A DNA stretch of 64,000 nt from Pedobacter psychrotolerans (GTDB lineage Bacteria > Bacteroidota > Bacteroidia > Sphingobacteriales > Sphingobacteriaceae), in the NCBI RefSeq assembly GCF_004340665.1, contig NZ_SLWO01000004.1:248001-312000 (forward strand). The letters are read 5' to 3'. Each line of letters starts with the position of its first letter. The first letter of the stretch is position 1. A model generated the notes under the pieces. It saw only the letters and a program-made list of their open reading frames with translations. It made no database searches and was not told the DNA's origin. Shown here piece by piece: positions 31,186-57,100 of this stretch. The position numbers were made by a program, and so were the translations under genes.

Positions 31186-31259
31186 GGGCCTATAGCTCAG
31201 CTGGTTAGAGTAGAAGACTCATAATCTTTTGGTCCCTGGTTCGAGCCCAGGTGGGCCCA
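31186..31259 (+). tRNA. tRNA with CAU anticodon (tRNA-Ile2 or elongator tRNA-Met)
   Basis: A full cloverleaf can be drawn: acceptor G-G-G-C-C-T-A with T-G-G-G-C-C-C (one G-U), D-arm GCTC/GAGT, a 5-bp anticodon stem GAAGA/TCTTT, anticodon loop CTCATAA, T-arm CCTGG/CCAGG, and A as discriminator. CCA is not encoded. CAU could read AUG, or AUA after lysidine modification by TilS. The GACTCATAATC and TTGGTC surroundings look more like tRNA-Ile2, but I cannot decide without TilS-determinant comparison. It is followed by an intrinsic terminator and by a recombinase fragment, so it is the probable attachment site of the element downstream. Confidence 0.95.
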
Positions 31260-31272
31260 CAAAAATTAAATT

Positions 31273-37176: not shown

Positions 37177-37830
37177 TTATAAATTGTTGAGATTAAAGTT
37201 GCTTAATTTAAATTCTCGGATCATGATATCTTGTTCCAAATCCAAAAGGCATAAATAACAGCTATATTCGGGATGAATCTGTAATTCTTTTAAATACCAG
37301 GTGCGTTGCTGGTGGCTTAACGAATTATTTATACAGGTAAAATCATTTAAACCATTAACCACACCTATGCCTATGGCCTTAAGCAGCGCCTCTTTTTTTA
37401 CCCATAAATTATAAAAGCAATTTTTTGGATCTGATGAGGAATTAATATATTGTTTTTCTTCCGGATGAAAATTATTCAGAATATCCTGGTAGCTTACATC
37501 TGCTTTTTGTTCAATATCAATTCCAACCGCCTCACCAGTGGTGTAGGCAAAAACAACTACATCTGAGGAATGGCTGATATTAAATGCATGCCAGTTAACC
37601 ATAAACGGTTTATTATTTGCATTTCTTCTCCAATCTTTTAGGGATTGAGTGGATGAAGTTTCAGTTAAACTTTCCTGCAGCATCAATCTAGCCAGTAATC
37701 TTGATTTTCGATCGTTATCGTATTTATACCTCAAAACTTCTTTCAACATAAAAGAAGGCAGATAGTTCATATAATGTGAAATGTCCGCATCTTTAATAAC
37801 ATCAATATTACAATATTTAATAACTACCAT
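37177..37830 (-). CDS. 4'-phosphopantetheinyl transferase (Sfp type)
   Basis: A 217-residue PPTase that moves phosphopantetheine from CoA onto the Ser of carrier domains. Signature motifs are present: F-N-I-S-H-S (substrate loop), G-I-D-I-E (Mg-binding, ~residue 97) and W-V-K-K-E-A-L-L-K-A (~142). It lies 110 bp downstream of the third NRPS gene and presumably primes all six carrier domains of this cluster. The length is close to the Sfp class. Confidence 0.94.
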   Translation of the reverse strand: MVVIKYCNIDVIKDADISHYMNYLPSFMLKEVLRYKYDNDRKSRLLARLMLQESLTETSSTQSLKDWRRNANNKPFMVNWHAFNISHSSDVVVFAYTTGEAVGIDIEQKADVSYQDILNNFHPEEKQYINSSSDPKNCFYNLWVKKEALLKAIGIGVVNGLNDFTCINNSLSHQQRTWYLKELQIHPEYSCYLCLLDLEQDIMIREFKLSNFNLNNL

Positions 37831-37940: not shown

Positions 37941-40900
37941 TTAAAATTCTAGGTCTATAGAAATATTTCTTGACATATTTTCCTCGGTTAGCCGGATATC
38001 ATACGCTGTTATACTCCTAGCCGGTTGGTTAAGTATATCTATCATAAGCTTTTTAAATTTACCAATAATTAAACGAATGGTAGCTGTTTCATATAAATCA
38101 GTATTGTATTCCAGTTGGCAATAAATTTGGCTGTCCTGTTCGTAAAAATTAAATGTTATAGGAAACCGGCTAACCTGGTGTAAAGTATCATAATGTTCTA
38201 TTTCTAAACCCGAAAATGCATGGTGTCCTAATATATTAAAATTGGGATTTTGATAGGCCACCATGATCTCAAATAAGGGCCGTATACTATCATCTTCAAT
38301 ATACTGATGAGATAACGCATCTCCTAAATTATGATGAACACGATATAAATGAAAATTAAAATCTTCATCTGCATGTACATAATTTCTTAAGACGATGGTA
38401 TTAACATACATTCCCATATGTTCTTCGAGCCCTTCTTTATCCCTGCCTGCAGCTACTGTTCCGAGGCAAATATCGGAATGTCCGGAATACCTGAAAATCA
38501 GAATATTGATGGCCGTAATGAGTATGGAAAAAACGCTGACATGCTCTTTTTTTGCCAGTTGTTTAAGCGCATTGGTTTCGGTTAAAGAAAAATTAAATAC
38601 TGCTAAATTACCGCTAAATGAGGTAGTATGAGCTAACCGGTCGTATGCAAAAACAGCTACATTGTTATAATCAGCATATTGCGTTTTAAACCACTCCGCG
38701 TTCATTACCTTATTGGTATGCTGCACCAGCCATGTTGCATAATCTTTAAACTGAAAGCTTAAAGGACTTACTGCAGGTTCTTTCTGATTTAAGATGCTGT
38801 TGTACCGCTGTGATAGTTCGTTAAATAATACCTCTACCGACCACCCGTCCATAATTAAATGATGAGTAGTATATACCAGCAATGTCTTTTTTTCTTCCAG
38901 TTTTATGAGGCTTAATTTAATCAGCAGTTCTGTTGCAAGATCAAATGTGTAGTACTTTAGTTTGCTGATAGATGAATGAATTTCATTATCATCAACTGCT
39001 TCAATCATATCAATCTTAAAATCAACCTGTTCTATTGATCTTACCGTTTGCCAGCACCGGCCATTAGCTTCTGTAAAATTGGTACGCAATATCTCATGCT
39101 GCGCAATACAGCCAATCATGGCCTGGTGCAGGGCATGGTAGTTCATTTTTCCATTAACCTGCAAGGCCACAGACATATTGTAAGCCCTTGATGCTTCTTT
39201 TCTCTGGCATAATAACCATAAATGATACTGGCCAGGAGTAACCGGATATTGATTATTTTCGTCATAAACGGGATAAACAGGTGTTCGATCAACAACCAGC
39301 TCTTTCAACTGCCCTGCCATTAATCGAACAGTGGGATAATCAAAAAAAGCTTTCAATGTAATGTTAAAGCCTAATTCCTCTTTAATCAAAGTAATCATCC
39401 TGACTGCATTTAAGGAGTGTCCGCCCTGGGCAAAAAAATCGTCATCAACCTGTAGATCCGGCTGGAGCAATATCTTTTTCCAGATGGCTAGCAATTTATT
39501 TTCCAATGCGGTTAAAGGGCGTATATCAATTCTCGTTACCAAAGGCTGGATAACATTTTCGGCCATTTTGAGCAGTGCTTTTTTATCTATTTTTTTATTA
39601 GGCGTAAGTGGAAATGAATCTACATAGATCATTACACGTGGTATCATGTACGCGGGCAGTACAGGGGCTAATTGTCCACCTATATATTTATCATTAAGGT
39701 TTTCATCTTTTGGAATTATAAAGGCTAAAAGGTAAGCCTCATGATCGTCATCTTTTTTTGCAATAACAACAGATTCTTCAATGCTGTTTAACGCATTAAG
39801 CTGCTTTTCTATTTCACCGGGTTCAATCCTGTAACCCCTTATTTTAATCTGATTATCAGACCTTCCACAAAATATTACTTGTCCATCAATTGCCCTTTTG
39901 GCAAAATCGCCCGTTTTATAAAGTCTTTCACCGGGTTTAAAAGGGTGCTTAATGAATACTTTATCTGTGAGTGCCTGAGCTTTATAATATCCCCTGGCTA
40001 AACCATCGCCCCCAATATATAAGTCGCCTACTGATCCGAAAGGTAAAAGGTTTAGCCATTGATCCAGTATCAGAATAGTGGTATTATGTATAGGCCAGCC
40101 TATGCTAAGCGCGTCGTCAGGAACTGTAACTTTTTTAACCATCGACCAGATGGTTGTTTCTGTTGGCCCATACATGTTCCACACCGCCGCACTTCCTTCA
40201 ATCAATTTTGCGGCCAGGGCACTGCTTAAATGATCACCACCACATAAGCATTTTAGGTTCCGGGCTCCTTTCCACCCTGCATTAAACAACATCTGGTAAA
40301 AACTTGGCGTGGCCTGTATTACAGTTGGTTTAACCCTACCAAGCAGTTCAATAATCTGCGAGGGTTCGGAAAGTACAGCATTACCTGCAATATAAACCGC
40401 AGCACCACAAATTACCGGCAGAAATAATTCCAGTATCGAAATATCAAATGAGCAGGAGGTAACCGCAAATAAGGTATCTGATTCTTGTAAACCAGGTGTT
40501 TGTTGCATACTGAGCAAGAAATTAACTACTGACTTTTGTAGTATTTCTACCCCCTTAGGATTACCTGTAGAGCCAGAGGTGTAAATGATATAAGCCGTTT
40601 TTGCTGACGAATAAGAAAAAGACCTGGCTGCCGGCGGATTGAGCTTAACCTGGTTAAATACTTCGTTTATCTGCACTACGGTTACCTCATTTGAACAATC
40701 AATGGTCTGTATATCCTCTGCCGTAATCAGCAAACCTGCACCGCTGTGTTCCAGTACATATTTAAGCCGCCCTACAGGAAAGGCGGGATCGAGCGGAATA
40801 AAAGCCCTGCCTGATTTCAGGATTCCTAATAAAATGATAAGCAAATCAGCAGACCTATTTATCATTACCCCGATTGGTGATGATAAGGGTGCTGAAATCG

Positions 40901-42398
40901 TATCCGTTAAATAACAGGCAACGCTATCCGTAATTTGATCCAATTGCTGGTAGGTATAGGTCTGATACCCATCTTTTAAGGCTATATTTTGTGGCGTTTT
41001 TTTAGTTTGCCAGCCAAAAAGCTCCTGGATGGTTAAATGAGAGGAGTAATTTTCTGCAGTTTGGTTGTATCCTTCTAAAAGTAAAGTTTGCTCGGCTGAA
41101 GGCAAATAATTAAGGCCGCTAATTTTACTTCCGGCATTATTGCTGACTTCGTTAAACAGCATTTCTATATGCCTGGCCAGGTTATTTATTTCATCTTCAT
41201 CAAAATAATTGAGGTTATAATCGAAATCTATTTTTACATCCTCGTCTTCATTATATTCTCTAACATACAAAGCAAGGGCACACCGCTCTGCCCTGTTGGT
41301 TAAAGGAATTACCTGGGTAGTAGTTCCTTCAAATGTATCTCCATAATGATGTTTCTCGTAAGAAAGGGTTATATCATAAAGCTTTTTATTTTCAGTAAAA
41401 ATCTGGAGCTCTCTGATCAGTTTTCCGATGGGGAAACGCTGATAACGATAATCTGTTCTAAGCTGATCTTTTATCTGGATTACAAGTTGTTTAAAGGAAT
41501 GATCCATTTCTACATTTATGCGCAACGGAGAAACGCCCATAAAAAGACCAACAGTATGTTTATAAGCGGCTTTGCCTCTGTTAAGTACCGGAATACCGAT
41601 GGCAAAATCGGTTTTATGGTAAAACCTTCCAAAATAAGTGTAAAATACAGCTAAAATAACATGAAATGAAGATGCACCACAACTTTTGCCCAATATACCC
41701 AGCTGATGATATAAAGACCTGGGCACAATAAGTTCTTTCCGCTTGCTCTGAACAACTTTTGGAAACGGGATTTTCTTGCTTATAAGTTCTTCGGGCAGTA
41801 CGCTGAACCTGTTTACCCAATAGGCATTTTCTTTTTCAAAAGATGCGCTTTTCCTGTAGTCCAGATCTTCTGCAACAAAATCTGCATAGCTGTAAGCATT
41901 TATTGCGGCTACTTTTCCCAGTTTCAGCAGTTCGTTGTAATTTTTTACCAGCTGCTGAAACATTAGCGAGGTGCCCCACCCATCGGTAATCAGGTGATGA
42001 TAAACGGATAGCAGGTAATGAAAATCGTTATTTACCTTAATTAACAAGCATTTATGAAGCAAACTGCCGTTCAGCAGGTCGAATGGTTTTTCAAATTCTT
42101 CCTGGATATACCTGGTTGCTTCGGTTTCAGCATCTGTAAAGGATGAAAAATCTATATGTTGCAAAAATGTGTAATTTATTTCGCACACCTTTAACATAGG
42201 AGGATTATCCCGGTCAATAACCAACACACTACGGATTGCATCATGCTGTTGTACCAGTTCCTGGTAAGCTAATGACAGTATCGTGGCATTGAGCTGGCCA
42301 CGAATGATAACTTTAGCTCCAATATTATATATCGGCAAATCAGGATGGAGAAGCTGATCATAGTAAATATTCTGTTGCGGTAAGGAGAGTGGCATCAT
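37941..42398 (-). CDS. NRPS, C-A-T-C, with a C-terminal orphan condensation domain
   Basis: A 1485-residue synthetase. C1 (HHxxxDG as H-H-L-I-T-D-G, ~135-141) has the starter/EntF-like look and may accept an acyl group or a free start. The A domain (~450-950) has Y-T-S-G-S-T-G (~604); its pocket residues read D-I-L-Q-L-G-M-I-W, which matches a glycine code. The carrier is G-G-H-S (~993). C2 (~1060-1485) has H-H-L-I-M-D-G (~1178), and the protein ends there with no further A, T or TE. It lies 4 bp after the FAD enzyme gene. The lone C-terminal C domain pairs logically with the lone N-terminal carrier of the 4168-residue NRPS. Confidence 0.93.
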   Translation of the reverse strand: MMPLSLPQQNIYYDQLLHPDLPIYNIGAKVIIRGQLNATILSLAYQELVQQHDAIRSVLVIDRDNPPMLKVCEINYTFLQHIDFSSFTDAETEATRYIQEEFEKPFDLLNGSLLHKCLLIKVNNDFHYLLSVYHHLITDGWGTSLMFQQLVKNYNELLKLGKVAAINAYSYADFVAEDLDYRKSASFEKENAYWVNRFSVLPEELISKKIPFPKVVQSKRKELIVPRSLYHQLGILGKSCGASSFHVILAVFYTYFGRFYHKTDFAIGIPVLNRGKAAYKHTVGLFMGVSPLRINVEMDHSFKQLVIQIKDQLRTDYRYQRFPIGKLIRELQIFTENKKLYDITLSYEKHHYGDTFEGTTTQVIPLTNRAERCALALYVREYNEDEDVKIDFDYNLNYFDEDEINNLARHIEMLFNEVSNNAGSKISGLNYLPSAEQTLLLEGYNQTAENYSSHLTIQELFGWQTKKTPQNIALKDGYQTYTYQQLDQITDSVACYLTDTISAPLSSPIGVMINRSADLLIILLGILKSGRAFIPLDPAFPVGRLKYVLEHSGAGLLITAEDIQTIDCSNEVTVVQINEVFNQVKLNPPAARSFSYSSAKTAYIIYTSGSTGNPKGVEILQKSVVNFLLSMQQTPGLQESDTLFAVTSCSFDISILELFLPVICGAAVYIAGNAVLSEPSQIIELLGRVKPTVIQATPSFYQMLFNAGWKGARNLKCLCGGDHLSSALAAKLIEGSAAVWNMYGPTETTIWSMVKKVTVPDDALSIGWPIHNTTILILDQWLNLLPFGSVGDLYIGGDGLARGYYKAQALTDKVFIKHPFKPGERLYKTGDFAKRAIDGQVIFCGRSDNQIKIRGYRIEPGEIEKQLNALNSIEESVVIAKKDDDHEAYLLAFIIPKDENLNDKYIGGQLAPVLPAYMIPRVMIYVDSFPLTPNKKIDKKALLKMAENVIQPLVTRIDIRPLTALENKLLAIWKKILLQPDLQVDDDFFAQGGHSLNAVRMITLIKEELGFNITLKAFFDYPTVRLMAGQLKELVVDRTPVYPVYDENNQYPVTPGQYHLWLLCQRKEASRAYNMSVALQVNGKMNYHALHQAMIGCIAQHEILRTNFTEANGRCWQTVRSIEQVDFKIDMIEAVDDNEIHSSISKLKYYTFDLATELLIKLSLIKLEEKKTLLVYTTHHLIMDGWSVEVLFNELSQRYNSILNQKEPAVSPLSFQFKDYATWLVQHTNKVMNAEWFKTQYADYNNVAVFAYDRLAHTTSFSGNLAVFNFSLTETNALKQLAKKEHVSVFSILITAINILIFRYSGHSDICLGTVAAGRDKEGLEEHMGMYVNTIVLRNYVHADEDFNFHLYRVHHNLGDALSHQYIEDDSIRPLFEIMVAYQNPNFNILGHHAFSGLEIEHYDTLHQVSRFPITFNFYEQDSQIYCQLEYNTDLYETATIRLIIGKFKKLMIDILNQPARSITAYDIRLTEENMSRNISIDLEF

Positions 42399-42402
42399 AG
42401 GA

Positions 42403-43791
42403 TCAACTATTAGAATATTGTAATAATGGCTTGTGCATACCGGTAACCCGATCTGCCAGTTGTTTTGCCTGTACCCTTATTTCAGGAACAGCAGTTGTTT
42501 CCCATAAAGTTCCCTTAGCGGGAGCACCAATGGTATAAAAACAATCCGAAACCCTACCATCCTGTTGTATCAGCGCTCCTTCTGCAGAACATTGTAAACC
42601 GAGGCCAAGCGGGTCAGCACAAATTACTCCTTTTTGCATCAGGTTTCTAATCAGGTCATGTACAATCAGATTGTAATCAGTTAAAGGCCCCATGCAGTTA
42701 ATAATTACATCTGCTTTTAATTGCTTTATTAATTGTGTTTTTTCCTGTATGTAGGTAATGCAGAATCCTGCTTCAGCGCTTTCGCTGATTTGCCTGATTC
42801 TGCCTGCGTACATTGTTATTTTACCTGTTGCCAACCACGAATGTACAATTAAAGCACATTCTTCAGGCATTCTGTGTCTGCAAACTTCCCACCGGTGGCG
42901 CAGATGTTCTATAAATGCTTTTCTTTCCACTTCAGCAAGCTGGTTCCACAATTGTGGAATATGGGGCCGCAATGCATCTGTTACCGCACGCCAGTCTGAA
43001 CCGATTATTGCGGCTTGTTTTAAATGTTTTTTCAGTATTCCAAACATTCCGAGTATGGTTACCTGTTTGCGCATATCTTCACCGAAACAAGGGTAAGGAA
43101 TACATTTTTTATGCACGGCAGGCATTAATCCATGTCTTGATATTGCGGTAACTTTACCCTTATGGCCTCTTTTGTGAAGACTGATAATGGTATCAGTCAT
43201 GGTGAGCCCTGTGCCGATGATAAAAATTTCCTCCAGGCCTTTTAGGCTGTCCATCAATCCGGGTTGCCAGGCCGAAGGAAAGTAATTTGCTGAATGGGTG
43301 TAATCATTATTTTTTAAGGCTAAATGCCCGGGCGGAAATGTGCCTGTGGCCATAATCAACTGATCGAATGACAGTTGCCCTGCCCCGTTAAGCAATACAT
43401 TTTTCCCCTCCATATCCACATCTACAGCCTCAGCCTGCAACATGGATACATTGATTAATTCAGATTTATATTTCATCAGGTGGTTAAAAATATCCAGGAT
43501 GTACTGTCTGTATATTTTCCGTGGCATAAATGAAAGTGGTGTAAAATCAATAGCATTTTTAAGCAGCCAATCTGCAAAATGATTTTTATCATCCGAAAAT
43601 GCACTCATATTGGATACGGGCACATTGAGTAAATGTGCTTCTTCAGTAGTTTCATAAGGTACCCCAAGACGATCCAGGCGCTCTTTTTCGAGCAGAACAA
43701 CATTTAACCGTTGCGCGCCGGGTGTGCGAAGCAGGTTCATCAGTATTAAATAACCACTTATCCCCCCTCCTATAATTACTATATTTTTCAT
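42403..43791 (-). CDS. FAD/NAD(P)-binding oxidoreductase (NAD_binding_9 type)
   Basis: A 462-residue flavoprotein with an N-terminal Rossmann motif I-I-G-G-G-I-S-G (~5-12) and V-L-L-E-K near 35. It shows the L-L-N-V-P-V-S-N-M-S-A region, M-A-T-G-T-F-P-P-G (~150) and a second nucleotide site I-I-G-T-G-L-T-M-T-D-T (~188). This fits the PF13454 family of proteins, distantly related to flavin monooxygenases. It sits between the carbamoyltransferase and NRPS genes (4 bp before the latter). Candidate roles are oxidation of a carrier-bound residue or the oxidative step of Dap synthesis that SbnB performs elsewhere. Neither is shown by sequence. Confidence 0.8.
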   Translation of the reverse strand: MKNIVIIGGGISGYLILMNLLRTPGAQRLNVVLLEKERLDRLGVPYETTEEAHLLNVPVSNMSAFSDDKNHFADWLLKNAIDFTPLSFMPRKIYRQYILDIFNHLMKYKSELINVSMLQAEAVDVDMEGKNVLLNGAGQLSFDQLIMATGTFPPGHLALKNNDYTHSANYFPSAWQPGLMDSLKGLEEIFIIGTGLTMTDTIISLHKRGHKGKVTAISRHGLMPAVHKKCIPYPCFGEDMRKQVTILGMFGILKKHLKQAAIIGSDWRAVTDALRPHIPQLWNQLAEVERKAFIEHLRHRWEVCRHRMPEECALIVHSWLATGKITMYAGRIRQISESAEAGFCITYIQEKTQLIKQLKADVIINCMGPLTDYNLIVHDLIRNLMQKGVICADPLGLGLQCSAEGALIQQDGRVSDCFYTIGAPAKGTLWETTAVPEIRVQAKQLADRVTGMHKPLLQYSNS

Positions 43792-43841: not shown

Positions 43842-45548
43842 TTATAACATGATGAGGTAGTCATCAATCACCAATGCATCTATGCCGGTTGTACAGAACA
43901 TGGCTACCGCATCTTCTACTGAATGGATGATGGGTTTACCCATGATATTGAAACTGGTATTGAGCAAAATTGGGATACCCGTTAGTTCTTTAAAGGCCGA
44001 GATGAGATTATAATACCTTTCGTTGTATTCTTTTTTAACCGTTTGCAACCTGCCGGTACCATCGGTATGAACCACACCAGGTACTTTATTAAAACTTTCT
44101 TTTTTAAAAACTAGTGCTTTTTCCATATAGGGAGATTCGCTATAATTTTCAAAATATTCGTGGCCGTACTCGTGAAGAATTGAAGGCGCAAAAGGCCTGA
44201 ATTCTTCCCTGAATTTAACCTTGCTGTTGATGATATCTTTTATGTTCTCATTCCGGGGATCTGCCAGGATGGATCTGTTACCCAGAGAGCGTGGACCATA
44301 CTCTGCTTTTCCCTGCACCCAGCCTATAATTTTTCCTTCTGCCAACAGCTTTGCAGTATCCTGGTATATATTTTCTGATTTCCTGGCATAATTGAACTTA
44401 TTAAAGCGCATGATCCTTTCCACAGCATCTACAGACATTCCAGAACCCAGGTACGGCGATTTTATATTTACGATTTCCTTTTGTACAGGATGATCCTGGT
44501 AATAGGCCAGTAAAGCAGCACCTACGGCATTTCCATCATCTGCAGGGGCACAGGGTACATGCATATTTTTAAAGTTTGTTGTTTGCTGCACTTTACCATT
44601 ATAGGCAGAGTTTAAAGCGCACCCGCCTGTAAACACCAGATTTTCGGAAATCCCTTTTTTATACAGGTTTTGTAAGAGGGCAGAAAGGATATCAGAAAAG
44701 AATACCTGCGCGGTAAAGGCAAGATCTGCATATTTTAAGGACCCATTACCAGGCCAGTTTTTAACCACTTCTTTTAATGCACGCGTAGCATCTGAAGCCC
44801 TTCTTTTAGGAATCATTACAGTGCCTTTTACTTCCAGAAACTCGCATAAAAGCGCATATACCTCTTCATTGTATTTGCCATAAGGAGCAAGGCCCATCAC
44901 TTTCCACTCTTCTCCGTCTAAATGGTTAAAACCGCAGGCGTTGCATACAAAGCCATACAACATCCCTAAACTACCTGCAGATGAGGGAATTCCCGGAACG
45001 GGGGTAAGTGTTCCGTTTATGTAATGATAAAATGCTGTTGATCCTTTTTCTCCAAAACCATCTGCCACCACACAAACCGCTTCTTTAAATGGACTGCTAT
45101 AACAGGCGAAGGCTGCATGTGTAAGGTGATGGTTAAAAGATTTTTCGACAATGCCGGAGTTTCCGAATTGCTGCTGAAAATTAATGGCAATATTTTTTCC
45201 GGCTAGCCTGCCATTGGCAATCATTCCCTGGCGCATGGTTTTAATGGTACGTTCGTTAGTTTCAGTAACCCGCCTGTTCATCAGCCATTGCATTAACGGA
45301 TTGCTGATCCGCTGAATATAACTTTCGCCCCAGGAAGTTGCAATCACCAGATCGGCATCGGGCTCACAATATTCTCTTACCAGCTGCCTTGACCGGATGA
45401 GGTCGTCGGGAACGCAATTCCATGCACGTTTATTTTGCAAGTTCCGCTCCGTAGCCTCTGCAAAAACAAGTTCACCTTTTGAATTTATGATAGCGATTGC
45501 CGGGTCGTGACAAGTAGAGGCTATTCCTACATAATTTTTTTTCTTCAT
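43842..45548 (-). CDS. Carbamoyltransferase, NodU/CmcH/TobZ family
   Basis: A 568-residue protein of the O-carbamoyltransferase family that moves the carbamoyl group of carbamoyl phosphate through a carbamoyladenylate. Motifs are: N-terminal Y-V-G-I-A-S-T-C-H-D-P-A; metal/substrate H-H-L-T-H-A-A (~140); D-G-F-G-E-K-G; and F-T-G-G-C-A-L-N-S. Also present are G-K-A-E-Y-G-P-R-S-L-G-N-R-S-I-L-A-D-P-R and R-E-E-F-R-P-F-A-P-S. In antibiotic clusters such enzymes carbamoylate hydroxyl groups (cephamycin, tobramycin). Here the N-methylserine predicted from module 2 is the obvious acceptor, but a ureido on Dap is possible. It lies 23 bp after the APS kinase gene in the same operon. Confidence 0.93.
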   Translation of the reverse strand: MKKKNYVGIASTCHDPAIAIINSKGELVFAEATERNLQNKRAWNCVPDDLIRSRQLVREYCEPDADLVIATSWGESYIQRISNPLMQWLMNRRVTETNERTIKTMRQGMIANGRLAGKNIAINFQQQFGNSGIVEKSFNHHLTHAAFACYSSPFKEAVCVVADGFGEKGSTAFYHYINGTLTPVPGIPSSAGSLGMLYGFVCNACGFNHLDGEEWKVMGLAPYGKYNEEVYALLCEFLEVKGTVMIPKRRASDATRALKEVVKNWPGNGSLKYADLAFTAQVFFSDILSALLQNLYKKGISENLVFTGGCALNSAYNGKVQQTTNFKNMHVPCAPADDGNAVGAALLAYYQDHPVQKEIVNIKSPYLGSGMSVDAVERIMRFNKFNYARKSENIYQDTAKLLAEGKIIGWVQGKAEYGPRSLGNRSILADPRNENIKDIINSKVKFREEFRPFAPSILHEYGHEYFENYSESPYMEKALVFKKESFNKVPGVVHTDGTGRLQTVKKEYNERYYNLISAFKELTGIPILLNTSFNIMGKPIIHSVEDAVAMFCTTGIDALVIDDYLIML

Positions 45549-45571: not shown

Positions 45572-46150
45572 TTAGGCCTCGTTTATTGATTTATCCTGTA
45601 AAGTATCCATAAGAGATAAAGTTGGCAGGTAACCGGCTTCTTCCAGATAGCTGATTATTTTATTAACAGAAATTTCTACTGTTTCTGTATCTGTAAAACA
45701 GATTATTTCAGGATGCCGGGGTTCTTCATAAGGATCACTTATTCCCGTAAAACCTGTTAATGCTCCACTACGAACTTTTTTGTACAATCCCTTTACATCC
45801 CTTCGTTCGCACTCTTCAATGGGGCATTTAATGTATACTTCTATAAAGTTTTTAATTTTAGCCCTTACCTGTTGGCGGGCTTCCTGATAAGGCGATATGG
45901 CCGAGACAATTACGCCCACACCATTTCTGGAGAGTAAGGCTGCAACAAAACCAATACGAAGCACATTAATATCCCTGTCTTCACGCGAGAAAGTTAATCC
46001 CTTTGAAAGGTTTTCTCTGATCACATCTCCATCGAGTGTTTCACAAGGTACCTGCCTCTTGTTTAGCGCTAAACATAACTTTTCGGCTATGGTTGTTTTA
46101 CCCGCTCCGCTCAAACCGGTAAGCCAGATTGTAAATCCGTTAATTTTCAT
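45572..46150 (-). CDS. cysC: Adenylylsulfate kinase (APS kinase)
   Basis: A 192-residue P-loop kinase converting APS to PAPS, the donor for sulfo-transfer. Motifs are complete: G-L-S-G-A-G-K-T-T (~12-20), L-D-G-D-V-I-R-E-N-L (~39), F-S-R-E-D-R-D-I-N (~54), V-S-A-I-S-P-Y-Q-E-A-R and F-T-G-I-S-D-P-Y-E-E-P. It carries no sulfurylase domain, so APS must come from ATP sulfurylase elsewhere. Within the NRPS operon it implies that the product is sulfated or N-sulfonated, yet no sulfotransferase gene is recognisable in the window. The C-terminus has a short extension after the P-T-L. Confidence 0.95.
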   Translation of the reverse strand: MKINGFTIWLTGLSGAGKTTIAEKLCLALNKRQVPCETLDGDVIRENLSKGLTFSREDRDINVLRIGFVAALLSRNGVGVIVSAISPYQEARQQVRAKIKNFIEVYIKCPIEECERRDVKGLYKKVRSGALTGFTGISDPYEEPRHPEIICFTDTETVEISVNKIISYLEEAGYLPTLSLMDTLQDKSINEA

Positions 46151-46167: not shown

Positions 46168-47172
46168 TTAATTATTTATGGTAAAGTCCTGATATTGTGC
46201 CGCAGCAACCTTTGCTCCCCACTGTTGATCATAAATGGTATCTAGGTAAGCATCTCCACTATCCGGACAAATAAATAATACCTGTGGCTTGGTATCAAAA
46301 GCAGGATGATTTTGGAAATATCTTTTTATACAGCTGTAGGATGCACCGGATGAAGCTCCGCAAAACAGCATGTGCTGATCAACCAGGTTATGGCAGCCTT
46401 CAATAATGTCGACCTGTGATATATGGATAATTTCATCAATTATAGCTTCATTAATGAGTGGTGGAACAATGCTTGAACCAATACCGGAAATAAAGCGCTT
46501 TTGTGGAGGATGCGAAAATATTACTGATCCTTCTACATCAATGGCTATAATTTTAATATCAGGAAATTCTATTTTGAGTTTTTTTGACAGGCCGGCTATT
46601 GTTCCGCACGAACTTACACCAATAAAAACATAATCCAATTTTACAAAGCTATCGGCTATCTCTTTGGCCATATAATGATAATAGGTTTCTGCATTTACAG
46701 GATTTCCATATTGATTTGGCCAGAATGTGTGCTCGTTTGACTGGCGTATTGCTGATACCCGTGCAAGGCGCGTAAGCAGGTAGCCGCCGGTTTCATCAAT
46801 TTCTGTTACCTTGATTACTTCTGCACACAAGTAGCGTAAAAGTTTCTCATAACCCGGATTAATGTTGGGATCTATTACCGGGATAAACCTGATGCCAATA
46901 AGTTTACAAAGCATGGCCAGTGCAATGGCAAAATTACCCGAACTGGATTCTACTACTATGCTATTTTCATCTATCTGACCATCGCCGATAGCTTTATATA
47001 GGATATTAAACGCAGGCCTGCTTTTAATGCTACCTGCAAAATTAACGTATTCAAGTTTGGCAAAAATATTGGCATTCATATGTGGCACAGCAAGTTTTAT
47101 AACAGGCGTATTACCAATCAGAGGCTGGATTAAACTTAGTTTTTCCAGCATTTCTTTTGTTTGAAGGGACAT
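46168..47172 (-). CDS. sbnA: 2,3-diaminopropionate biosynthesis protein, SbnA-like (ACEGA synthase)
   Basis: A 334-residue PLP fold-type II enzyme. SbnA condenses O-phosphoserine and glutamate to N-(1-amino-1-carboxy-2-ethyl)glutamate, the precursor of Dap. It resembles SbnA more than cysteine synthase: F-A-K-L-E-Y-V-N-F-A-G-S-I-K-S-R-P (PLP Lys ~46), E-S-S-S-G-N-F-A-I-A-L-A-M, D-P-N-I-N-P-G, G-G-Y-L-L-T-R-L-A-R-V, F-W-P-N-Q-Y-G-N-P, S-S-C-G-T-I-A-G-L-S, and C-P-D-S-G-D-A-Y-L-D-T. No SbnB partner is in the window. Position directly after the terminal NRPS module (24 bp) supports supply of Dap to that module's A domain. Confidence 0.9.
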   Translation of the reverse strand: MSLQTKEMLEKLSLIQPLIGNTPVIKLAVPHMNANIFAKLEYVNFAGSIKSRPAFNILYKAIGDGQIDENSIVVESSSGNFAIALAMLCKLIGIRFIPVIDPNINPGYEKLLRYLCAEVIKVTEIDETGGYLLTRLARVSAIRQSNEHTFWPNQYGNPVNAETYYHYMAKEIADSFVKLDYVFIGVSSCGTIAGLSKKLKIEFPDIKIIAIDVEGSVIFSHPPQKRFISGIGSSIVPPLINEAIIDEIIHISQVDIIEGCHNLVDQHMLFCGASSGASYSCIKRYFQNHPAFDTKPQVLFICPDSGDAYLDTIYDQQWGAKVAAAQYQDFTINN

Positions 47173-47196: not shown

Positions 47197-50100
47197 TTAA
47201 TTAAATATTAGCCATTTGTTTTTAACAGGAGCAGCAACAAAACTGCCCTGTGCAATCTGATAAAGTATTGCTGCGAGTTCAACTGGTTGATCTCTCCACA
47301 TAAAGTGGCCTACATCGGGCATCTCTACCAGTGTAACATTTTCTGCATACAGCCGCCAGTCTTTATATTTTCGGTGATATCCTTTAGTTATCGGGTCGCG
47401 GTCGCCAACGATTACATAAAACGGGGCTTTTAACCGATTATAATTGTTTTCCTTCATCAGGTTAAGATGATAATTGAAGGCGGCTTTGGCCAGTACACCA
47501 TCATATTTCAGGTTACGGAAAAAAATCAGCTGATCTTCCAGTTCGGTTGGAAAGGTAGCATCAATGCTTTCTAAAAAAGAAACTAGTACTTTGTCAGTCC
47601 TGTCATCGTCCTCCGAAACCTGTTTGGTACGGGGCAATGCACCACCTGTACAGATGGCATGGCATATGATGCCTTCATCCTGTAGCATACGGCCAATTTC
47701 AATTGCAAGTCCGGCGCCGTTACACTGCCCGTAAATGATAATTGGTGTCTGGATTCTTTTTTTAACTTCTTCTACAATCGCTGATGAAAGCTGAAGCAGG
47801 AGTGATTGCATCGATTCTTCGGCACTTGGCTCAAACCTCGGAAGATTAATCCCATATACGGCAATCTCATCTGTAAGCTCCAAAAGTGCTTTAGTAGTTT
47901 CTTCATAAATGAGCGGATCACCTGCCGAATTTGGCACAGCAATAATGCTTATCTTTTTCTTGTGGCCTGCCGGGGTAAGCTCATAAAGGTTATACATGCT
48001 TTCCTGGCTGTTTTGTGCAATATATGCTGCCAATGATCTGATGGTAGGATATTTATAAAGATCAGACACCATAAATGCCCTGCCAAATTTTGATACCATC
48101 CGGATGGCTTTAAAAGAGTCGCCACCGATTTCAAAAAAATTATCGGTTACGCTTACCTTTTCCATTTTAAGCACCCCCTGCCAAATGGCGACCAGCTTTT
48201 CTTCCGTTTCGTTCAAAGGATGATGAAATTCGCTTTGTTTTAAAAGAGGGGCCGATTCGGCTATTTCACGGATGGTTTTCCGGTCTGTTTTTCCGTTTGT
48301 GGTTAGCGGAAAAGTCTCCAGCACAGTAAAATAAAGTGGAATCATATAATCGGGCAACCTGGAAGCCAGAAATGTACGAAGCGATTCGGTATCATAACCT
48401 TCTTTTACCACAAGATAAGCACTCAGATAGGTATCGCCATCTATTTCCTGTTTATCAAATACGATAGCATCCTCTACAAACGGGAATAAATCAATAGCCT
48501 TTTCTATTTCCTCTAATTCTATCCTGAAACCCCTGATTTTTACCTGGTAATCTTTTCTGCCAAAAAATTCTACCGCACCGTTTTCAAGAAAACGGCCTAC
48601 ATCTCCTGTTTGATAAAGCCTGATATTTTTTTCCTCCCGGAAAGGATCAAACCTAAACACACCTGCAGTTTTAACTTCATCATTTACATAACCTCTCCCT
48701 ACACCTGCACCCGACACCACAATTTCGCCTTTAATGCCTATTGGGCATTGCTGAAAGTTTTGATCTACAATGTAGATCTTTGTATTTTGAATGGGAAAAC
48801 CTACCGGTACAGTATCAACTTGTAAAGGTTTGTTAATAAGATAATGGGTAATGTCATCCGAAGCTTCTGTGGGGCCGTAAGCATTTATCATTGGAATACT
48901 CGGATATAATGTTAACCAGCGGTTAACCAATTTGGGTTTAAGTGCCTCACCTGTCATTACCAGGTATTTTAGTTCAGGAAATTCGGGAGGTTCGATGCCA
49001 TCATCGATAAGGCCCAGTAATATAGAAAGGTAGGAAGGAACCAGTTCGAGAATTGTTATTTTATCGAGCGTTAGCTGCTGCATAAATGAAACCGGATCCA
49101 GTACCAATTCGCGGCCGTACACCGCCGTCTTCCCTCCCGCCATTAAAGCGACAAAAAATTGCCATACTGATATGTCAAAGCATTGAGATGCATTTTGAAC
49201 AACAATACTGTCTGCAGTAATCTGCATATCGCTTACTTTAGCAAATAAGTGGTTCATCATTCCTCCATGTTCTACCATGGCACCTTTGGGTTTACCCGTA
49301 GAACCTGATGTGTAAATGATGTATGCAAGATCACCCGGATGATTTACTTGGCCAGGGTTTTGCATGTTACATGCTGCCAGTGCCTCTGCAGATTCATCAA
49401 GATCAATTACACTATAATCCTCCTGAAGCCTGGCCCTTAGTACTGTATTTTCAAAAGTACGGTCTATGAGCACCATTTTTGCTCCTGAGTCTGCAAGCAT
49501 CAGCAGCAATCGATCTTGAGGATAGTCAATATCCAGCGGAATATAGGTTGCGCTACATTTCCATACGGCAATGATGCTGATGATCATATGGTCTGAACGA
49601 TCCATGAGTATTCCTACTTTATCATCTGCCTTTAAAACGATTTTCTGCTGCATTAGTGCAGCCAGCTGATTAGCAGCTATATTAAGCTCATTGTACGAAA
49701 ATTGCCTTCCCCTATACAATAAAGCGATATGTTCTGGTTTTGATGCAGCAAAGCCTTCTATAATGACGGTAACCGATTGGGTGTTAGGCAAAGAAACATC
49801 AGTGCTGTTAAATTTCTCCATCATCTGCCGGTCATGATCCATAAAAACAGATAGGTCGGCAATTTTTGTGTGGGGATGTTTAACAACCTGATTAAGCAGG
49901 TTTGTAAACATTTTGGCAGCCCTGCTGATAAAAGCATCCTCAAATGCATTGGCATTGTAAGTAAATTCTACAGCCAGTTTTTTACCCGCAGTAATATCAA
50001 CGCAGAGATCATAATTTGTTTGTTCGAAATTATCTTCGAGGGTAATGTTAAATTCATTTCCGGCAGTTACAGCATCTGATTCAAGCTCAGGAAATTCAAT

Positions 50101-51168
50101 AAGCACGAGTAAATGATCAATTAAATGCTGTTTTAGCGGTGATAGAGATACGATTTCTCCAAAAGGAAAATAATCATGGTTGCGGCTTTCTGTCAATTGT
50201 TCGTTTACCTGCTTAAGCAGTATTTCAAATGTTACGCCCGGATCTGCATGAATTCGAGTTGGAACGGTATTGATAAAAAGACCAACCATTTGTTCCGCAT
50301 TTCTAAGTTCTGCAGGTCGGCCGGCAACAACTGAACCAAATATAACCTCCTGGTTAGCCGTTAATTTACTCAGCAATATTCCCCATACACTTTGTAGCAG
50401 TACATATAATGTGGTATGATATTGTGCTGCAAGTGAACGGAGGGCTGTGGTTATATCTTCTTCAAGCACCGCTTTTACCTGTGCTCTGCAATACCCAGAG
50501 GCCTGCTGTGTTAACGACCTGCGGCATGGAAGAACAGTAGCCTCATCATAACCTATAAGGTAACGCTGCCAGTATGCCAGTGCTTCTTCTTTATTTTGTT
50601 TTCCCAACCACTTAATGTATTCTTTAAATGGTGTTGCAGTTGGTAGTGAGATTATTTTATGCTCATTAATCAGGATATACAGCTGCATAAATTCGCTCAT
50701 CAGGATGCGCAGTGACCAACCATCCAGAATAATATGATGGTAGCTCCATACCAGGTTAAAAGTGGTATGATCAAGCTGAATTACTGCTACCCTCATCATC
50801 GTTTCCGTAGACAAATTAAAATGCCTTGCCCGCTCTGATGTTTTAAATGAGGTCATAAATGCCGTTTTCTCTTCAGCATTAATATCCCTTATGTCATGGT
50901 AAGTAAATACGGCTTCGCATTTTTTAAGTACAATTTGTATCGGAAGTTCTAATTTTTCAAATTTGAATACAGTTCTCAGCACGTCGTGCCGTTCTACCAA
51001 CTGCTGCAGCGCTTTTTCAAGGGCGGCGATATTTAAATTTCCCTTGATCAGGAAAGCAGATTGTTGAAAATATGCTGAAGATTGTTGTTCCAGAAGCGTA
51101 TGGAATAATATTCCTTCCTGCATAGATGACAATGCATAAATATCACTGATATTTTCTTTGTTAAGCAT
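47197..51168 (-). CDS. Terminal NRPS module C-A-T-TE with diamino-acid A domain and Cys thioesterase
   Basis: A 1323-residue protein. The C domain (M-Q-E-G-I-L-F-H-T-L near the start, H-H-I-I-L-D-G ~142) is of the DCL type that follows an epimerase, consistent with the E domain ending the upstream NRPS. The A domain (Y-T-S-G-S-T-G ~618) has pocket residues D-I-W-E-V-T-A-D-D, close to the diaminobutyrate code with Glu and two Asp. This fits a short diamino acid such as Dap. The carrier is G-G-D-S (~1017). The TE (~1070-1323) has nucleophile elbow G-Q-C-N-G: Cys1149 replaces the usual Ser. Candidate Asp and His partners are G-D-R-D and D-V-G-H-F. It lies 11 bp after the big NRPS gene. A Cys TE after D-Ala then Dap is the SulM monobactam arrangement. 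Confidence 0.95.
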   Translation of the reverse strand: MLNKENISDIYALSSMQEGILFHTLLEQQSSAYFQQSAFLIKGNLNIAALEKALQQLVERHDVLRTVFKFEKLELPIQIVLKKCEAVFTYHDIRDINAEEKTAFMTSFKTSERARHFNLSTETMMRVAVIQLDHTTFNLVWSYHHIILDGWSLRILMSEFMQLYILINEHKIISLPTATPFKEYIKWLGKQNKEEALAYWQRYLIGYDEATVLPCRRSLTQQASGYCRAQVKAVLEEDITTALRSLAAQYHTTLYVLLQSVWGILLSKLTANQEVIFGSVVAGRPAELRNAEQMVGLFINTVPTRIHADPGVTFEILLKQVNEQLTESRNHDYFPFGEIVSLSPLKQHLIDHLLVLIEFPELESDAVTAGNEFNITLEDNFEQTNYDLCVDITAGKKLAVEFTYNANAFEDAFISRAAKMFTNLLNQVVKHPHTKIADLSVFMDHDRQMMEKFNSTDVSLPNTQSVTVIIEGFAASKPEHIALLYRGRQFSYNELNIAANQLAALMQQKIVLKADDKVGILMDRSDHMIISIIAVWKCSATYIPLDIDYPQDRLLLMLADSGAKMVLIDRTFENTVLRARLQEDYSVIDLDESAEALAACNMQNPGQVNHPGDLAYIIYTSGSTGKPKGAMVEHGGMMNHLFAKVSDMQITADSIVVQNASQCFDISVWQFFVALMAGGKTAVYGRELVLDPVSFMQQLTLDKITILELVPSYLSILLGLIDDGIEPPEFPELKYLVMTGEALKPKLVNRWLTLYPSIPMINAYGPTEASDDITHYLINKPLQVDTVPVGFPIQNTKIYIVDQNFQQCPIGIKGEIVVSGAGVGRGYVNDEVKTAGVFRFDPFREEKNIRLYQTGDVGRFLENGAVEFFGRKDYQVKIRGFRIELEEIEKAIDLFPFVEDAIVFDKQEIDGDTYLSAYLVVKEGYDTESLRTFLASRLPDYMIPLYFTVLETFPLTTNGKTDRKTIREIAESAPLLKQSEFHHPLNETEEKLVAIWQGVLKMEKVSVTDNFFEIGGDSFKAIRMVSKFGRAFMVSDLYKYPTIRSLAAYIAQNSQESMYNLYELTPAGHKKKISIIAVPNSAGDPLIYEETTKALLELTDEIAVYGINLPRFEPSAEESMQSLLLQLSSAIVEEVKKRIQTPIIIYGQCNGAGLAIEIGRMLQDEGIICHAICTGGALPRTKQVSEDDDRTDKVLVSFLESIDATFPTELEDQLIFFRNLKYDGVLAKAAFNYHLNLMKENNYNRLKAPFYVIVGDRDPITKGYHRKYKDWRLYAENVTLVEMPDVGHFMWRDQPVELAAILYQIAQGSFVAAPVKNKWLIFN

Positions 51169-51179
51169 ATGTTTTGATG

Positions 51180-54100
51180 TTAATCGAATAAGTTATCAAT
51201 AGTGTCAATAGATAGTCCTTTTAAAGTAAAGTCGCTAGGTGTTAATTCAACTGTTGCTTTACCCATACACAGTAAGATGATGGCCAGCAAGGCTGTTTTA
51301 TACTGTTCAATAAAGCTGGTCATCAGCGCACGCTCGTATTGTTTATTGCTGAATGTGATGGAAATAGAAAGGCATCCCTCTTTAATGATCCCATTTACTT
51401 CCCACTCATGCTGCCGCAGGGCATCACCTGCATGTATGCTGCCTGGAGATTCATCAGAAATGGCAAAAAAGGTATGCTGCAAGTCAGAATCAAACTGGCC
51501 CAGGTAATTAAAACTAACCTGGGGTTTAAGATTATAAGATTCAGATTCAACATCAGTACTTAAATGTTTCAGCATGCCATGGCCTATTCCTTTGTTCGGT
51601 ACATTGTGCAACTGTTCTTTTACTTCTTTAATACACCTGGATACTTCTGACTCAGCATTCCATGATAATACAACTGGATAAAGCGCTGTAAACCAGCCAA
51701 TGGTGCGACTGATATCGATATGCTCGAATAAATCTTCACGACCATGCCCTTCCATCGCAATAGCAATTGAATCAGCACCGAAAACAGTATTGAAGGTTTG
51801 CATGAGGGCGCTTAACAGGATGTCGTTAATTTCTGTATTAAAGGCTGCATTAACGCGGGTTAACAGGAAAGCAGTATTTTCATTATCGAGTTTAAACGAT
51901 ACCTTTTCCTGATGTTTCACTAAATTATCGCCTAACTGCCCGTTGCCCGGCAGCCTATATACAGGTGTAGCATCAACTTTCTGCCAGTAATCCAGTTCAT
52001 TAGCTAAAAAATGTGGAGTATTGGCATGGCGTTTCAGTTCATCTGCCCATATTTTATACGCATCTGTTTTAAGGGGTAACTGTAAAGTTTGTTTCTCTGT
52101 AACCTGTTGGTAAAGCATATTAAAATCTTCGAAAAGCACCCGCCAAGAAACACCATCGATTACCATGTGGTGAGCTACAATAAGCAACCTGTCGCCATCT
52201 GGTAAGTGAAATAGAGCGAGTTTAATTAAAGGTCCCTTTTCAAGATGAAGACTGTGCTGCAGTTGTTCTGCTTTTTCGGCCATCTGCAACAATGGATTTT
52301 CTACCAATACATATTCTTCCAGGTAAACTGGCATTTCATCAGCATTGTATTGCACCCAACCAGGATCTGTATGAGCGAAAAAGATCCTCAATGCATCATG
52401 GTGTGCTAAAATTTTTGCAAATGCGGAACGAATATGTTCTGCACTAAGCTGCCCGGCAACATGTAACATTACGGCCTGGTTATAGTGGTGAAGCCCTGCC
52501 GGGGAAGCCGTATGCAAAAATTCTTTTTGTATTGGGGTAAGTGCAATCTGGCCCGAAATGGTTGCCTGGTTAGCCATCCGGTATTGTACCTTAGCCCTTT
52601 CGGCAAGCCGAGCAATGGTTAAGTGCTGAAAAATTTCGCCCATTTTAATAGAAAGCCCCGCGTTGTGAAGGCGTGCCACTACCTGTATGGCACGGATAGA
52701 ATCGCCGCCAAGATCAAAGTAATTGTCATGGATTCCTATCTGTTTTTTACCCAGTACATTCTCCCAGATTAAAGCAATGGTGGCTTCTGTTTGATTGCGT
52801 GGTGCTACATATAACGATTCTTCATCAATTGCATGAGTTTCAGGCATCGGGAATAACTGGCGATCGATTTTCCCGTTGTGATTTAGGGGGAACTGCTCCA
52901 ATACAAGAAAAAAATCTGGGATCATGTATGCTGTTAAACAGGCAGACAGGTACCCTTTCAATGCTTCAATTACCAAAGCATTGTGCGTTTCAGCCTGGAT
53001 ATAGGCAACCAGAATTTGCTTGTCGGTTTCATCCCTTTTAGCCATCACCACATTATTTTTTACTCCGGGGTATTTAGAAATGGCTGTTTCAATTTCTCCA
53101 AGCTCTATTCTGAAGCCTCTTATTTTTACCTGAAAATCCAGTCGGCCCAAGAATTCCATATTACCATCGGCAAGCCACCTGCCCAGATCTCCCGTGCGGT
53201 AAATGCGCTCGCCTGTAATAAAGGGGTTTGAAACAAACTGCCGTTCGTTAAGTAAGGGTTGATTGATATATCCGGGACTAAGCCCAGCCCCTGATATACA
53301 GATTTCGCCGGCAATTCCTTTAGGCAACAACTGTAATTGTTTATCAACGATGTAAAACCGGGTATTGGAAATGGGTTTTCCGATAGGAATGTTGCTGTGT
53401 TTCCCATCAAAACGGTAGCAGCTGCTGTAGGTTGTATCTTCAGACGGGCCATAGAGGTTGCGTACCGAAATGCGGTTATAATCAAGTTCCTGCATAAAAT
53501 ATGATGGTACCGGCTCACCCGCAACATTAATTACATTTACGTGGCTCAAATCTGTATTACCGGCCAGCAGGCCTGCTATTACCGAAGGCACGGTATTAAG
53601 CAAAATATCTTTCTCTTTATCGAGGTATTGAATAATATCGGCACCCGATTGCAGTAACCTGATGTATTTACCGGCACAGAGCGTGTAAAAGATCTCAAAT
53701 ATCGAAAGGTCAAAACAGAAGGAAGTGGTAGCAAATACAGTTACAAACCTATCATCTTCAAATTCTGTAAGTGCCCAGTAAATAAAGGCTACAATGTTAT
53801 CATTTGCAATCTGTATGCCCTTTGGTTGCCCGGTAGAACCAGATGTATAAATACAATAAGCCAATTGCCCGGTACTGCCTGGTATTGTCGGGTTAAATAC
53901 AGCATAATTGCTGATTTTATGTTGCAATGCTGCATTAAAAATTAAAATTTCAGTCCCTTCCTGCACAGGCAGATCTGCAGCCAGCCGATCATCGCTAACC
54001 ATCAAAACCTTTACCCCTGCATCCTGCAACATATAGGTGATCCTGTTTTGAGGATAGGCAGGATCTACAGGTAAATAAGCCCCGCCCGCTTTAAGAACGG

Positions 54101-57100
54101 CAAGCATACAAATAATCATATGGGCGTTTCGCTCGGCCAGTATTCCGATAAGCGCTCCCGGAGTAATGTGATATTGTTTGCGCAGGTAATGAGCTAGCTG
54201 ATTGGCCCTGGCATTCAGCGCTTCATAAGTCAATTCTTCTTCATCTGTAACCAGCGCCAGCGCTAAAGGTGTGCGCAACACCTGTTCTTCTACCAGTTGT
54301 CGAACGGTTTTAGAAGGAAAATCCTGTTTGTAGTGCGCATTAAATAGCAATTCATTTTTCTCGGCAGGCGAAAGATAATCCAGCAACTGCAATGAAACCA
54401 GGCTGTCACTGGTAACCGCGCGGCAGAGCCCCTCAAAGTGGCTGAACATGGATTGTATACGCTCATGCAGAAAAAGATCGGTATTAAATTCTATATTAAC
54501 TGATAAACCATCAGGGGTTTCGGTAAAATAAAAGGTAAGATCCACTTTACTCACCCCCGTACTTCCGGTATGATAGGGAAGAATGTTTAAATCTTCAATC
54601 AATGGCAGTTTACGGTACGAGTCATCTCCGGTATTCTGCAACAGCACCATTACATCAAACAGCGGGGAACGGCTGGTATCCCGAATTAAATGCAATTCTT
54701 CTACCAGACTATCGAACGGATAAATCTGGTGTTCATAAGCATCGAGCATATCCGCTTTTAACGTTTTTAAAAGCTGATCGAATGATGCCGCCCCATTAAA
54801 ACGTGTACGGATTGCAAGTGTATTTACATAAAACCCGATCTGATCTTCCAGTTCGCTATCATAACGACCTGCTATAGGCGAGCCGATAATAATATCTTCC
54901 TGAGCGGTATAACGGTATAACAGGGTATTAACAACGGCCATTATTGTCATATAAAAACTTGCTCCTGCGGCTTTTCCCAGTTGATTAAGGTCAGCCGTAA
55001 GCGCTTTGTTTAACATAAAATGGAGGTTATCTCCATGATAGGTTTTTACCGGAGGCCTTGTAAAATCAGCCGGTAATTCGAGTACAGGCAGTTCACCACT
55101 AAAACGTTCCAGCCAGTAGGCCCGGTGGCCCGAACTCATTTCTGCAGATAACTGCTGGTGCTGCCAAACTGTATAATCTTTATAATGGATACGTAAGGGT
55201 GGCATTAATAGCGCCTGGTTACGGCGGTAAGCGGCATATATGTAAATTAATTCTTTTATTAACACATGCATAGACCATCCATCACTGATGATATGGGCCA
55301 TTGTAAAAACAAGGATGTGGCGCGCAGGTGCAATTTCAAATAGGGCAGCCCTTATCAGCGGGAAATTTTCGAGGTTAAACGGTTGTTGTACCTGTTCCTG
55401 TATAGTTGCCCGTATATCTTTTTCTGATCCTGCTGCAGCAATCGTGAGGAGATAAAGATGGGCTGCAACTTCTTCTGCAGGAATTATCAGTTGCCTCGGC
55501 TGCCCTGCTATGGTAATAAAACGGGTACGTAAACTTTCATGGCGCTGCACCAACGAAATAAATGCCCGTTGCAATGCATCTTTGTCTAATTCGCCGTTTA
55601 ACTCATGCGAACTGATTATATTATAAGCCCCCACCGCTTCTTCCCATTGGCTCAATACCCATAAGCGCCGTTGCGCATGCGATAATGGATACGAATACTG
55701 TATTGGTGCAAGGGGAATGCAATCTGCAATTTCCAGTTCTTTACCCTCCAGTGCACTAGCTAGTTCTGCTATGGTGGGTAAGGCAAAAAATGTTTTCAGA
55801 TCGAGTTTGAGTCCGTGTTGCTGGTGCATTCTTGATACCACCTGGGTGGCCTTAAGGGAATGCCCGCCAAGATCAAAAAAATTATCATGAATACCGATCT
55901 GATCAATTTGCAGTACCTGCTGCCAGATCAGGGTTAATTGTTCTTCCATTGAGGTGCGCGGAGCCCTGTAAGTTGTTCCGGATACCGAACGGATGGCTAC
56001 CGGCATTGGCAAGGCTTTCCTATCTAGCTTACCATTTATGGTAAGTGGAAATTTATCCAGCACAACAAAATAGGCAGGCACCATATAATCTGGCAGTATG
56101 GCATTTAAAAAGGTGCGTAGCTCAGGGATTACTTTATTTCTTAACTGCTGCAGCATCGGATTGCTTATTTTCTCGCGATGTGGATCAGGTAATGGCTGCG
56201 TTAACAAAAAGCGGTTATAATAAGTAGCAGCCAGGTTAGCCGGTGTAGTTGCGGCATTTGTCAGCACCATGTCATAACGTCCTCCATTAAGTTGCCTTGC
56301 CCATCCTGTATATGCCTGGTAGTTATATTGGGCAGCCAGCTGTAATATCAGGGTCTCATCCAAATCATTGCTCAACGCTCCTATCTCCTCATGGAGTGTG
56401 GCTACAGTTTCGGTTAAAGCGCGCTCATTGATCAGGGATACCAGTCTGTTTTCCTTTATTAAACGACTGTTGCTTACACCTGCAATACCTACAGGCGCGT
56501 TGTTGTTTGCGGCAAAGTAATTGCTGATTGCCAATGGTGTAAAATCTCCGCTAGCGGCATCCAGCCATGCAATTGCAGGAAGATCTTTAGTAACCTGCTC
56601 TTTAAGTGTAATTACAGCCTGGTAACGAAACCTGAATAGTTCATTTTCGCATTCACCATTTTTAGGGAGAATTTCTACCAATCCTATCTCATCAAACTGT
56701 CTTTGCAGATCAATAAAATACGCCGGATCAATCAGCAATTCTTTTTCATTATCCAGCGCAGCCTTAATCCGTTGCTGCAATACAGAAATCGGCGTATCAA
56801 TAGTTGCTTTATCATACTGAACGGATGTGTGAAATACATTTTGAAGGGATAGGCTCCTGATGTCGCCGATAATCAGCCGGCCACCAGGTTGTAATAAACG
56901 GATAGCTTCGCCTAGTAATGCATTAAAATAGGCTGCATCAGGAAAGTATTGTACTACTGAATTAATCACCAGGGTATCAAAGCTGCCAGAAGGAAGGCTT
57001 GTAAGCTGATGCGCAGCCAGCTGAAGTAATTTTACCTGTTCCCACAAACCAGGCAATGCAGTAATACTTTCTGTTAAATATTCTATCGCAGTAGCCGATA

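Follow-up and report, generated by a model that had tools for sequence, protein, structure and literature searches.

The window, by which we mean the whole 64,000-nucleotide stretch of Pedobacter psychrotolerans DNA that was analysed, encodes a terminal non-ribosomal peptide synthetase (NRPS) of 1323 amino acids (47197-51168, minus strand), in which matches to the Pfam families Condensation, AMP-binding, PP-binding and Thioesterase give the domain order C-A-T-TE. Its thioesterase (TE) domain (residues 1051-1323, 47200-48018) is predicted to be a beta-lactam-forming enzyme of the SulM type. The gene is preceded on the same strand by that of a large NRPS (51180-63686) with the arrangement T-C-A(Gly)-T-C-A(Ser)+MT-T-C-A(Ala-like)-T-E, 58% identical in [Flexibacter] sp. 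ATCC 35208; the methyltransferase within its Ser module (56868-57176, residues 2171-2273, Pfam Methyltransf_12/11) probably serves N-methylation. On the other side of the TE there are, all on the minus strand, genes for an SbnA-family 2,3-diaminopropionate (Dap) synthase (46168-47172; NCBIfam TIGR03945, 385 bits against a cut-off of 350), an APS kinase (45572-46150; Pfam APS_kinase, 3.7e-59), which would supply PAPS for N-sulfonation, an O-carbamoyltransferase (43842-45548; Pfam Carbam_trans_N/C; 79% identical in ATCC 35208), an FAD/NAD(P)-binding oxidoreductase (42403-43791; 53% identical in ATCC 35208), an extra NRPS (NRPS-E, 37941-42398) read as C-A(Gly-like)-T-C in the domain search, a phosphopantetheinyl transferase (37177-37830; NCBIfam 4PPT matches) and a diaminopropionate ammonia-lyase (35801-37012; NF006058, 498 bits against a cut-off of 276). 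Just past the window edge lie SbnB (L001:5324-6295, domain search) and a SulN-like sulfotransferase (L001:6321-7184, minus strand; Sulfotransfer_2, E=1.1e-13). The substrate calls for the non-terminal A domains, made by eye against known specificity codes, are weak, those for the Ala-like and the upstream domains being the weakest.

Several other genes deserve mention. An outer-membrane beta-barrel protein with a plug domain (OMP_b-brl_3; L001:2816-5323, minus strand, its low end at window position 63816) is encoded inside the cluster; its counterpart in ATCC 35208 is 61% identical, those in the second clusters of Leaf82 and ATCC 35103 about 28%, and a role in transport or protection is possible. 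A protein that joins a TauD-type oxygenase to a class II aldolase domain (L001:13281-15134, minus strand) is 52% identical in ATCC 35208. Adjoining the ABC transporter, the cluster also encodes a tandem Adenyl_transf protein (streptomycin adenylyltransferase family; L004:13663-15438, minus strand), and a NusG paralogue (L003:8185-8685, minus strand), perhaps an operon-specific antiterminator, heads the run of same-strand genes of about 53 kb. The ammonia-lyase, a Dap-degrading enzyme encoded next to a Dap-making cluster, possibly drains surplus free Dap.

Among solved structures the best match of the TE was the SulM TE (8w2c, E=5e-41 over 231 residues), well ahead of ObiF1 (6n8e, E=6e-20), and type II thioesterases followed from 2e-8 down (RifR 1.6e-3). 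A profile of seven TE relatives, which counts SulM itself among its rows, left this order unchanged (SulM 1.9e-105, ObiF1 6e-35, next 6e-13). The AlphaFold2 model of the domain (pLDDT 84.9) superimposed on 8w2c with a Z score of 34.9 and 1.8 A rmsd over 252 residues; the Z score was 28.8 for ObiF1 and at most 22.9 for the remaining structures. The initial annotation of this DNA had named alignment with SulM and ObiF and structure prediction as checks of its proposal, and both came out on the side of SulM. In a tree of 13 TEs, in which the branches of SulM and ObiF1 are long, the window TE was sister to the TE of ATCC 35208 (support 99/99; 71-72% identity over the domain), and the group containing the window TE and SulM excluded ObiF1 (97/96).

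The same annotation had placed a Cys in the position of the usual elbow Ser, in a GQCNG motif, and had taken the acid and His regions to be kept; it was right on each point. Cys1149 (residues 1147-1151 for the motif) aligns with SulM Cys2818, and its codon at 47722-47724 reads ACA on the plus strand, i.e. TGT on the minus strand (context IIIYGQCNGAGLAIEIGR). Asn1150 (47719-47721) aligns with SulM Asn2819, the peptide-positioning residue, and both the Cys and the Asn are invariant in all seven aligned sequences. The Pfam Thioesterase domain, the match to the SulM TE over 231 residues and this invariance argue that GQCNG is no chance motif; among known TEs Gln-Cys-Asn has been described for SulTE only (PMC11298585). 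The catalytic Asp1258 (47395-47397) and His1288 (47305-47307) occupy the columns of SulM Asp2926 and His2956. In the model Asp1258 comes after strand 200-205 (strand beta7), which follows the lid, and this puts it in position II. The lid itself contains a 30-residue helix (160-189), in agreement with the long lid helix of the SulM TE (PMC11298585). Two basic pocket residues are also kept, Arg1180 (47629-47631), aligned with SulM Arg2849, which contacts the sulfamate, and Arg1190 (47599-47601), aligned with Arg2858; basic residues are thus present at two of the three pocket arginine positions, the columns having been picked from the main text of PMC11298585, whose list of the three positions stands in its supplement. 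The third basic position is not conserved, SulM Lys2854/Arg2855 being Glu/Asp in the window TE, which counts against the monobactam reading developed below.

The terminal A domain (48688-49752) has the code DIWEVTADDK, to be compared with DVWEMNADDK in SulM module 3, which loads L-Dap (PMC11298585), and with DIWEITADDK in ATCC 35208; the remaining relatives have DIWEITADDK or DIWEINTDDK, which makes the code Dap-type throughout. The domain is therefore predicted to select L-2,3-diaminopropionate, A-domain codes having been read against a single reference rather than with a trained predictor, and the diamino-acid pocket named in the initial annotation agrees with this. Of the eight related loci that were read, seven had APS kinase homologues. 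The sulfotransferase, of family PF03567 and sited just outside the window, is 36% identical to the one adjoining SulM (L011), and no sulfotransferase of families PF00685 or PF13469 was found in the window's genome. Four criteria have been proposed for recognising new monobactam clusters (PMC11298585), and, as judged from sequence, the locus agrees with all four; the features of that paper seen here are the Gln-Cys-Asn motif with its Cys, the Asp at position II, the basic residues at two of the three pocket arginine positions, the predicted Dap specificity of the terminal A domain and, within the cluster, the sulfotransferase gene.

A scan of 84,980 genomes with two short peptide patterns identified six related loci: one in ATCC 35208 (72% identity), one in Paraburkholderia acidicola ATCC 31363, and two apiece in Flavobacterium sp. 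Leaf82 and ATCC 35103. The scan was non-exhaustive: a third TE escaped it in both ATCC 35103 and Leaf82, and the Chryseobacterium and Agrobacterium clusters that PMC11298585 names were not among its matches. In whole-genome searches the number of such TEs equalled that of the sulfotransferases in each of the five genomes (one of each in the window's genome, in ATCC 35208 and in ATCC 31363, three in ATCC 35103 and in Leaf82), and every paired sulfotransferase adjoined the TE or was in the same cluster. We take ATCC 31363 to be the sulfazecin producer, and this identity is supported by its TE, in which the Cys, Asp and His match the published SulM numbering exactly. Leaf82 was previously proposed to carry a monobactam cluster (PMC11298585). 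The stretches compared were L006, L012 and L013 for ATCC 35208, L011, L016 and L017 for the sulfazecin locus, and L007-L010, L014 and L015 for Leaf82 and ATCC 35103.

The closest relative is the cluster of ATCC 35208, with which SQ 28,332 is associated through the title of a GenBank record: KY502195, titled as the monobactam cluster of that strain, is cited together with MIBiG BGC0001672 in PMC9248904, whose own text assigns the MIBiG entry to ATCC 35103 instead and describes it as exclusive to its producer. Thirteen cluster genes are shared, in largely the same order and with 39.5-79% identity: NRPS-A, the TauD-aldolase, NRPS-B with an FkbH domain, the sulfotransferase, SbnB, the outer-membrane barrel, the large NRPS, the C-A-T-TE protein (63% identical), SbnA, APS kinase, carbamoyltransferase, FAD oxidoreductase and the ABC transporter. 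NRPS-A is only 39.5% identical, whereas the other shared proteins are 52-79% identical. From FkbH on the two assembly lines agree (free T, Gly, Ser with methyltransferase, Ala-like with E, Dap, TE); the last four A-domain codes are near-identical, and the Ala-like code DLFTIVLTYK is identical. Upstream they differ: the window cluster has DASTIAAVCK (Tyr-like), DLTKIGHIGK (Asp-like) and DTWKIGHIGK, whereas ATCC 35208 has DAFWIGGTFK, ECFKLFHIGK and DLTKRVHITK. In ATCC 35208 the TauD-aldolase gene is followed by that of the ABC transporter, and the cluster is broken up by three genes on the opposite strand, whereas the window cluster adds NRPS-E, the phosphopantetheinyl transferase and the Dap ammonia-lyase downstream; for NRPS-E, the part of ATCC 35208 that was read contained no orthologue.

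The resemblance to the sulfazecin system (SulM, 8w2c/8w2d) extends over the TE fold, the catalytic triad, Q-C-N, the pattern of the Dap code, an epimerised residue ahead of Dap, SbnA, APS kinase, the sulfotransferase and a homologue of the FAD oxidoreductase (L011:280-1641, 29%, 1e-64); because of this homologue the oxidoreductase may be part of the monobactam core. The two TEs are 31-32% identical. Sulfazecin is a tripeptide, whereas the window cluster has many more modules, FkbH, an N-methyltransferase and a carbamoyltransferase. In the sulfazecin cluster the APS kinase belongs to SulI, but here it is free-standing, and SulN adjoins SulM whereas in the window cluster about 16 kb lie between the TE gene and the sulfotransferase gene upstream of it. 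Leaf82 and ATCC 35103 share the SulM-type TE, the Dap code and the paired sulfotransferase, and in each genome two of the three TEs have FkbH domains nearby, but their TEs are 35-41% identical to that of the window and their module sets are different.

Taken together, these observations point to a monobactam cluster in which the Cys TE would be the ring-closing and releasing enzyme, a reading to which we assign a probability of about 0.93. It is based on the nearness of the TE to SulM by sequence, profile, tree and predicted fold, on the conservation of Q-C-N, the position-II Asp, the His and the two Arg columns along with the Dap-type terminal code, on the presence of SbnA, SbnB, APS kinase and sulfotransferase together with the pairing of TE and sulfotransferase in five genomes, and on synteny with a monobactam producer's cluster and the four published criteria. 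The initial annotation had argued for beta-lactam formation rather than simple hydrolysis from the Cys nucleophile and the diamino-acid pocket; the tree, the Q-C-N motif, the position-II Asp, the pocket arginines and the genes for Dap, PAPS and sulfotransfer all speak in its favour, and the argument is strengthened by the closest relative, whose host is a known monobactam producer.

By analogy with SulM, on which the sulfonated peptide is moved onto the Cys before it cyclises (PMC11298585), the following course may be envisaged. SbnA and SbnB would make L-Dap, which the terminal A domain would load onto the last carrier, and the C domain would join to it the upstream peptide, ending in a residue epimerised by the terminal E domain of the preceding NRPS. 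With PAPS from the APS kinase, the SulN-like sulfotransferase would N-sulfonate the beta-amine of Dap on the carrier. Cys1149, assisted by His1288 and Asp1258, would then accept the peptide as a thioester. The pocket would be tight, Arg1180 and Arg1190 lying close to the sulfamate and Asn1150 close to the backbone, and attack of the sulfamate nitrogen on the acyl-enzyme (4-exo-trig) would release an N-sulfo beta-lactam. The carbamoyltransferase, possibly also the oxygenase, would decorate the peptide. The order of these reactions and the product are inferred in the same way.

It is unlikely that the cluster is a decayed or silent monobactam relic, which would be compatible with a SulM-type TE. 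In favour of a relic, only one of the 145 genomes searched in the genus had the TE; the core is higher in G+C than the left flank (0.38-0.43 in the NRPS and tailoring part against 0.35 on the left, and 0.40 on the right); and an adjoining dnaE-like gene is split over several frames. Against decay, however, the large NRPS frames are all open from end to end, the proteins shared with ATCC 35208 are, NRPS-A aside, 52-79% identical, and every active-site residue inspected is intact. Among 395 genomes sampled from the phylum the TE was likewise found in one, and in both samples this was the window's own genome. Acquisition of the cluster by transfer is plausible. The split DnaE-like polymerase gene (32742-35767, plus strand; G+C 0.45 against about 0.35 around it) and a tRNA-Met at 31186-31260 are a possible edge of an inserted region.

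That the TE only hydrolyses, or forms a larger ring, the product being a linear or macrocyclic Dap peptide that is perhaps sulfated elsewhere, we regard as very improbable. The C2818S variant of SulM, which quickly hydrolyses the monobactam formed in situ (PMC11298585), demonstrates that a small change can turn ring formation into product hydrolysis, and by the same analogy it bears out the weight that the initial annotation had given to the Cys. The window TE, however, retains the Cys, Asn, Asp and His as well as two basic pocket residues, it shares 71% identity with its counterpart in a monobactam producer, and the sulfotransferase belongs to the SulN-like group accompanying such TEs. Closure of a beta-lactone as by ObiF1 of obafluorin, with the beta-hydroxyl of the last residue attacking the acyl-enzyme, hardly merits consideration: ObiF1 does have the Cys and the position-II Asp, but its motif is H-C-A, it lies outside the SulM group, its substrate is not Dap and its reaction needs neither the Dap nor the N-sulfonation enzymes that the cluster encodes, and the beta-hydroxy amino acid expected on the terminal A domain before an ObiF1-type TE is not what the Dap-like code and the Dap synthesis genes indicate.

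As to the product of the proposed monobactam pathway, the terminal modules shared with ATCC 35208 are predicted to contribute glyceryl, Gly, N-methyl-Ser, D-Ala-like and Dap units; the glyceryl unit made by FkbH, the N-methylation, the carbamoylation and the epimerisation before Dap are suggested by the domains. Since the upstream modules and the three extra genes differ from those of ATCC 35208, the compound is probably an unreported congener. We somewhat favour an undescribed monobactam with an SQ 28,332-like end (glyceryl, Gly, carbamoylated N-methyl-Ser, D-Ala, N-sulfo beta-lactam) attached to another N-terminal peptide, one that has Tyr- and Asp-type units, in which the FkbH-derived glyceryl would make an ester link in the chain.

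Monobactams are the beta-lactam class of the drug aztreonam. Natural monobactam clusters are few, and the chemistry of this ring closure has been worked out in detail for a single enzyme; our literature search found no account of such a cluster in Pedobacter. What is gained is an additional monobactam-type cluster whose peptide part is probably unreported, and the strain may make a new monobactam. As a second close relative of the SQ 28,332 cluster it completes a natural pair that agrees in the last modules and differs upstream, so the variety of peptides accepted by a monobactam-forming TE becomes testable. The equal numbers of TE and sulfotransferase in five of five genomes offer a simple search key for further clusters.

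One of the three TE-sulfotransferase pairs in each of ATCC 35103 and Leaf82 contains a SulM-like TE with G-H-C-K-G in place of G-Q-C-N-G (L014:4115-4945 and L015:8350-9180, both minus strand). These TEs are nevertheless preceded by an A domain with the Dap code DIWEINTDDK. Perhaps Q-C-N is too strict a rule, or perhaps the G-H-C-K-G enzymes have another role. In the cluster of this third TE in ATCC 35103 there is also a 925-amino acid protein (L014:473-3250, minus strand) with a pyruvate kinase-like start and an APS kinase-like region close to its C terminus.
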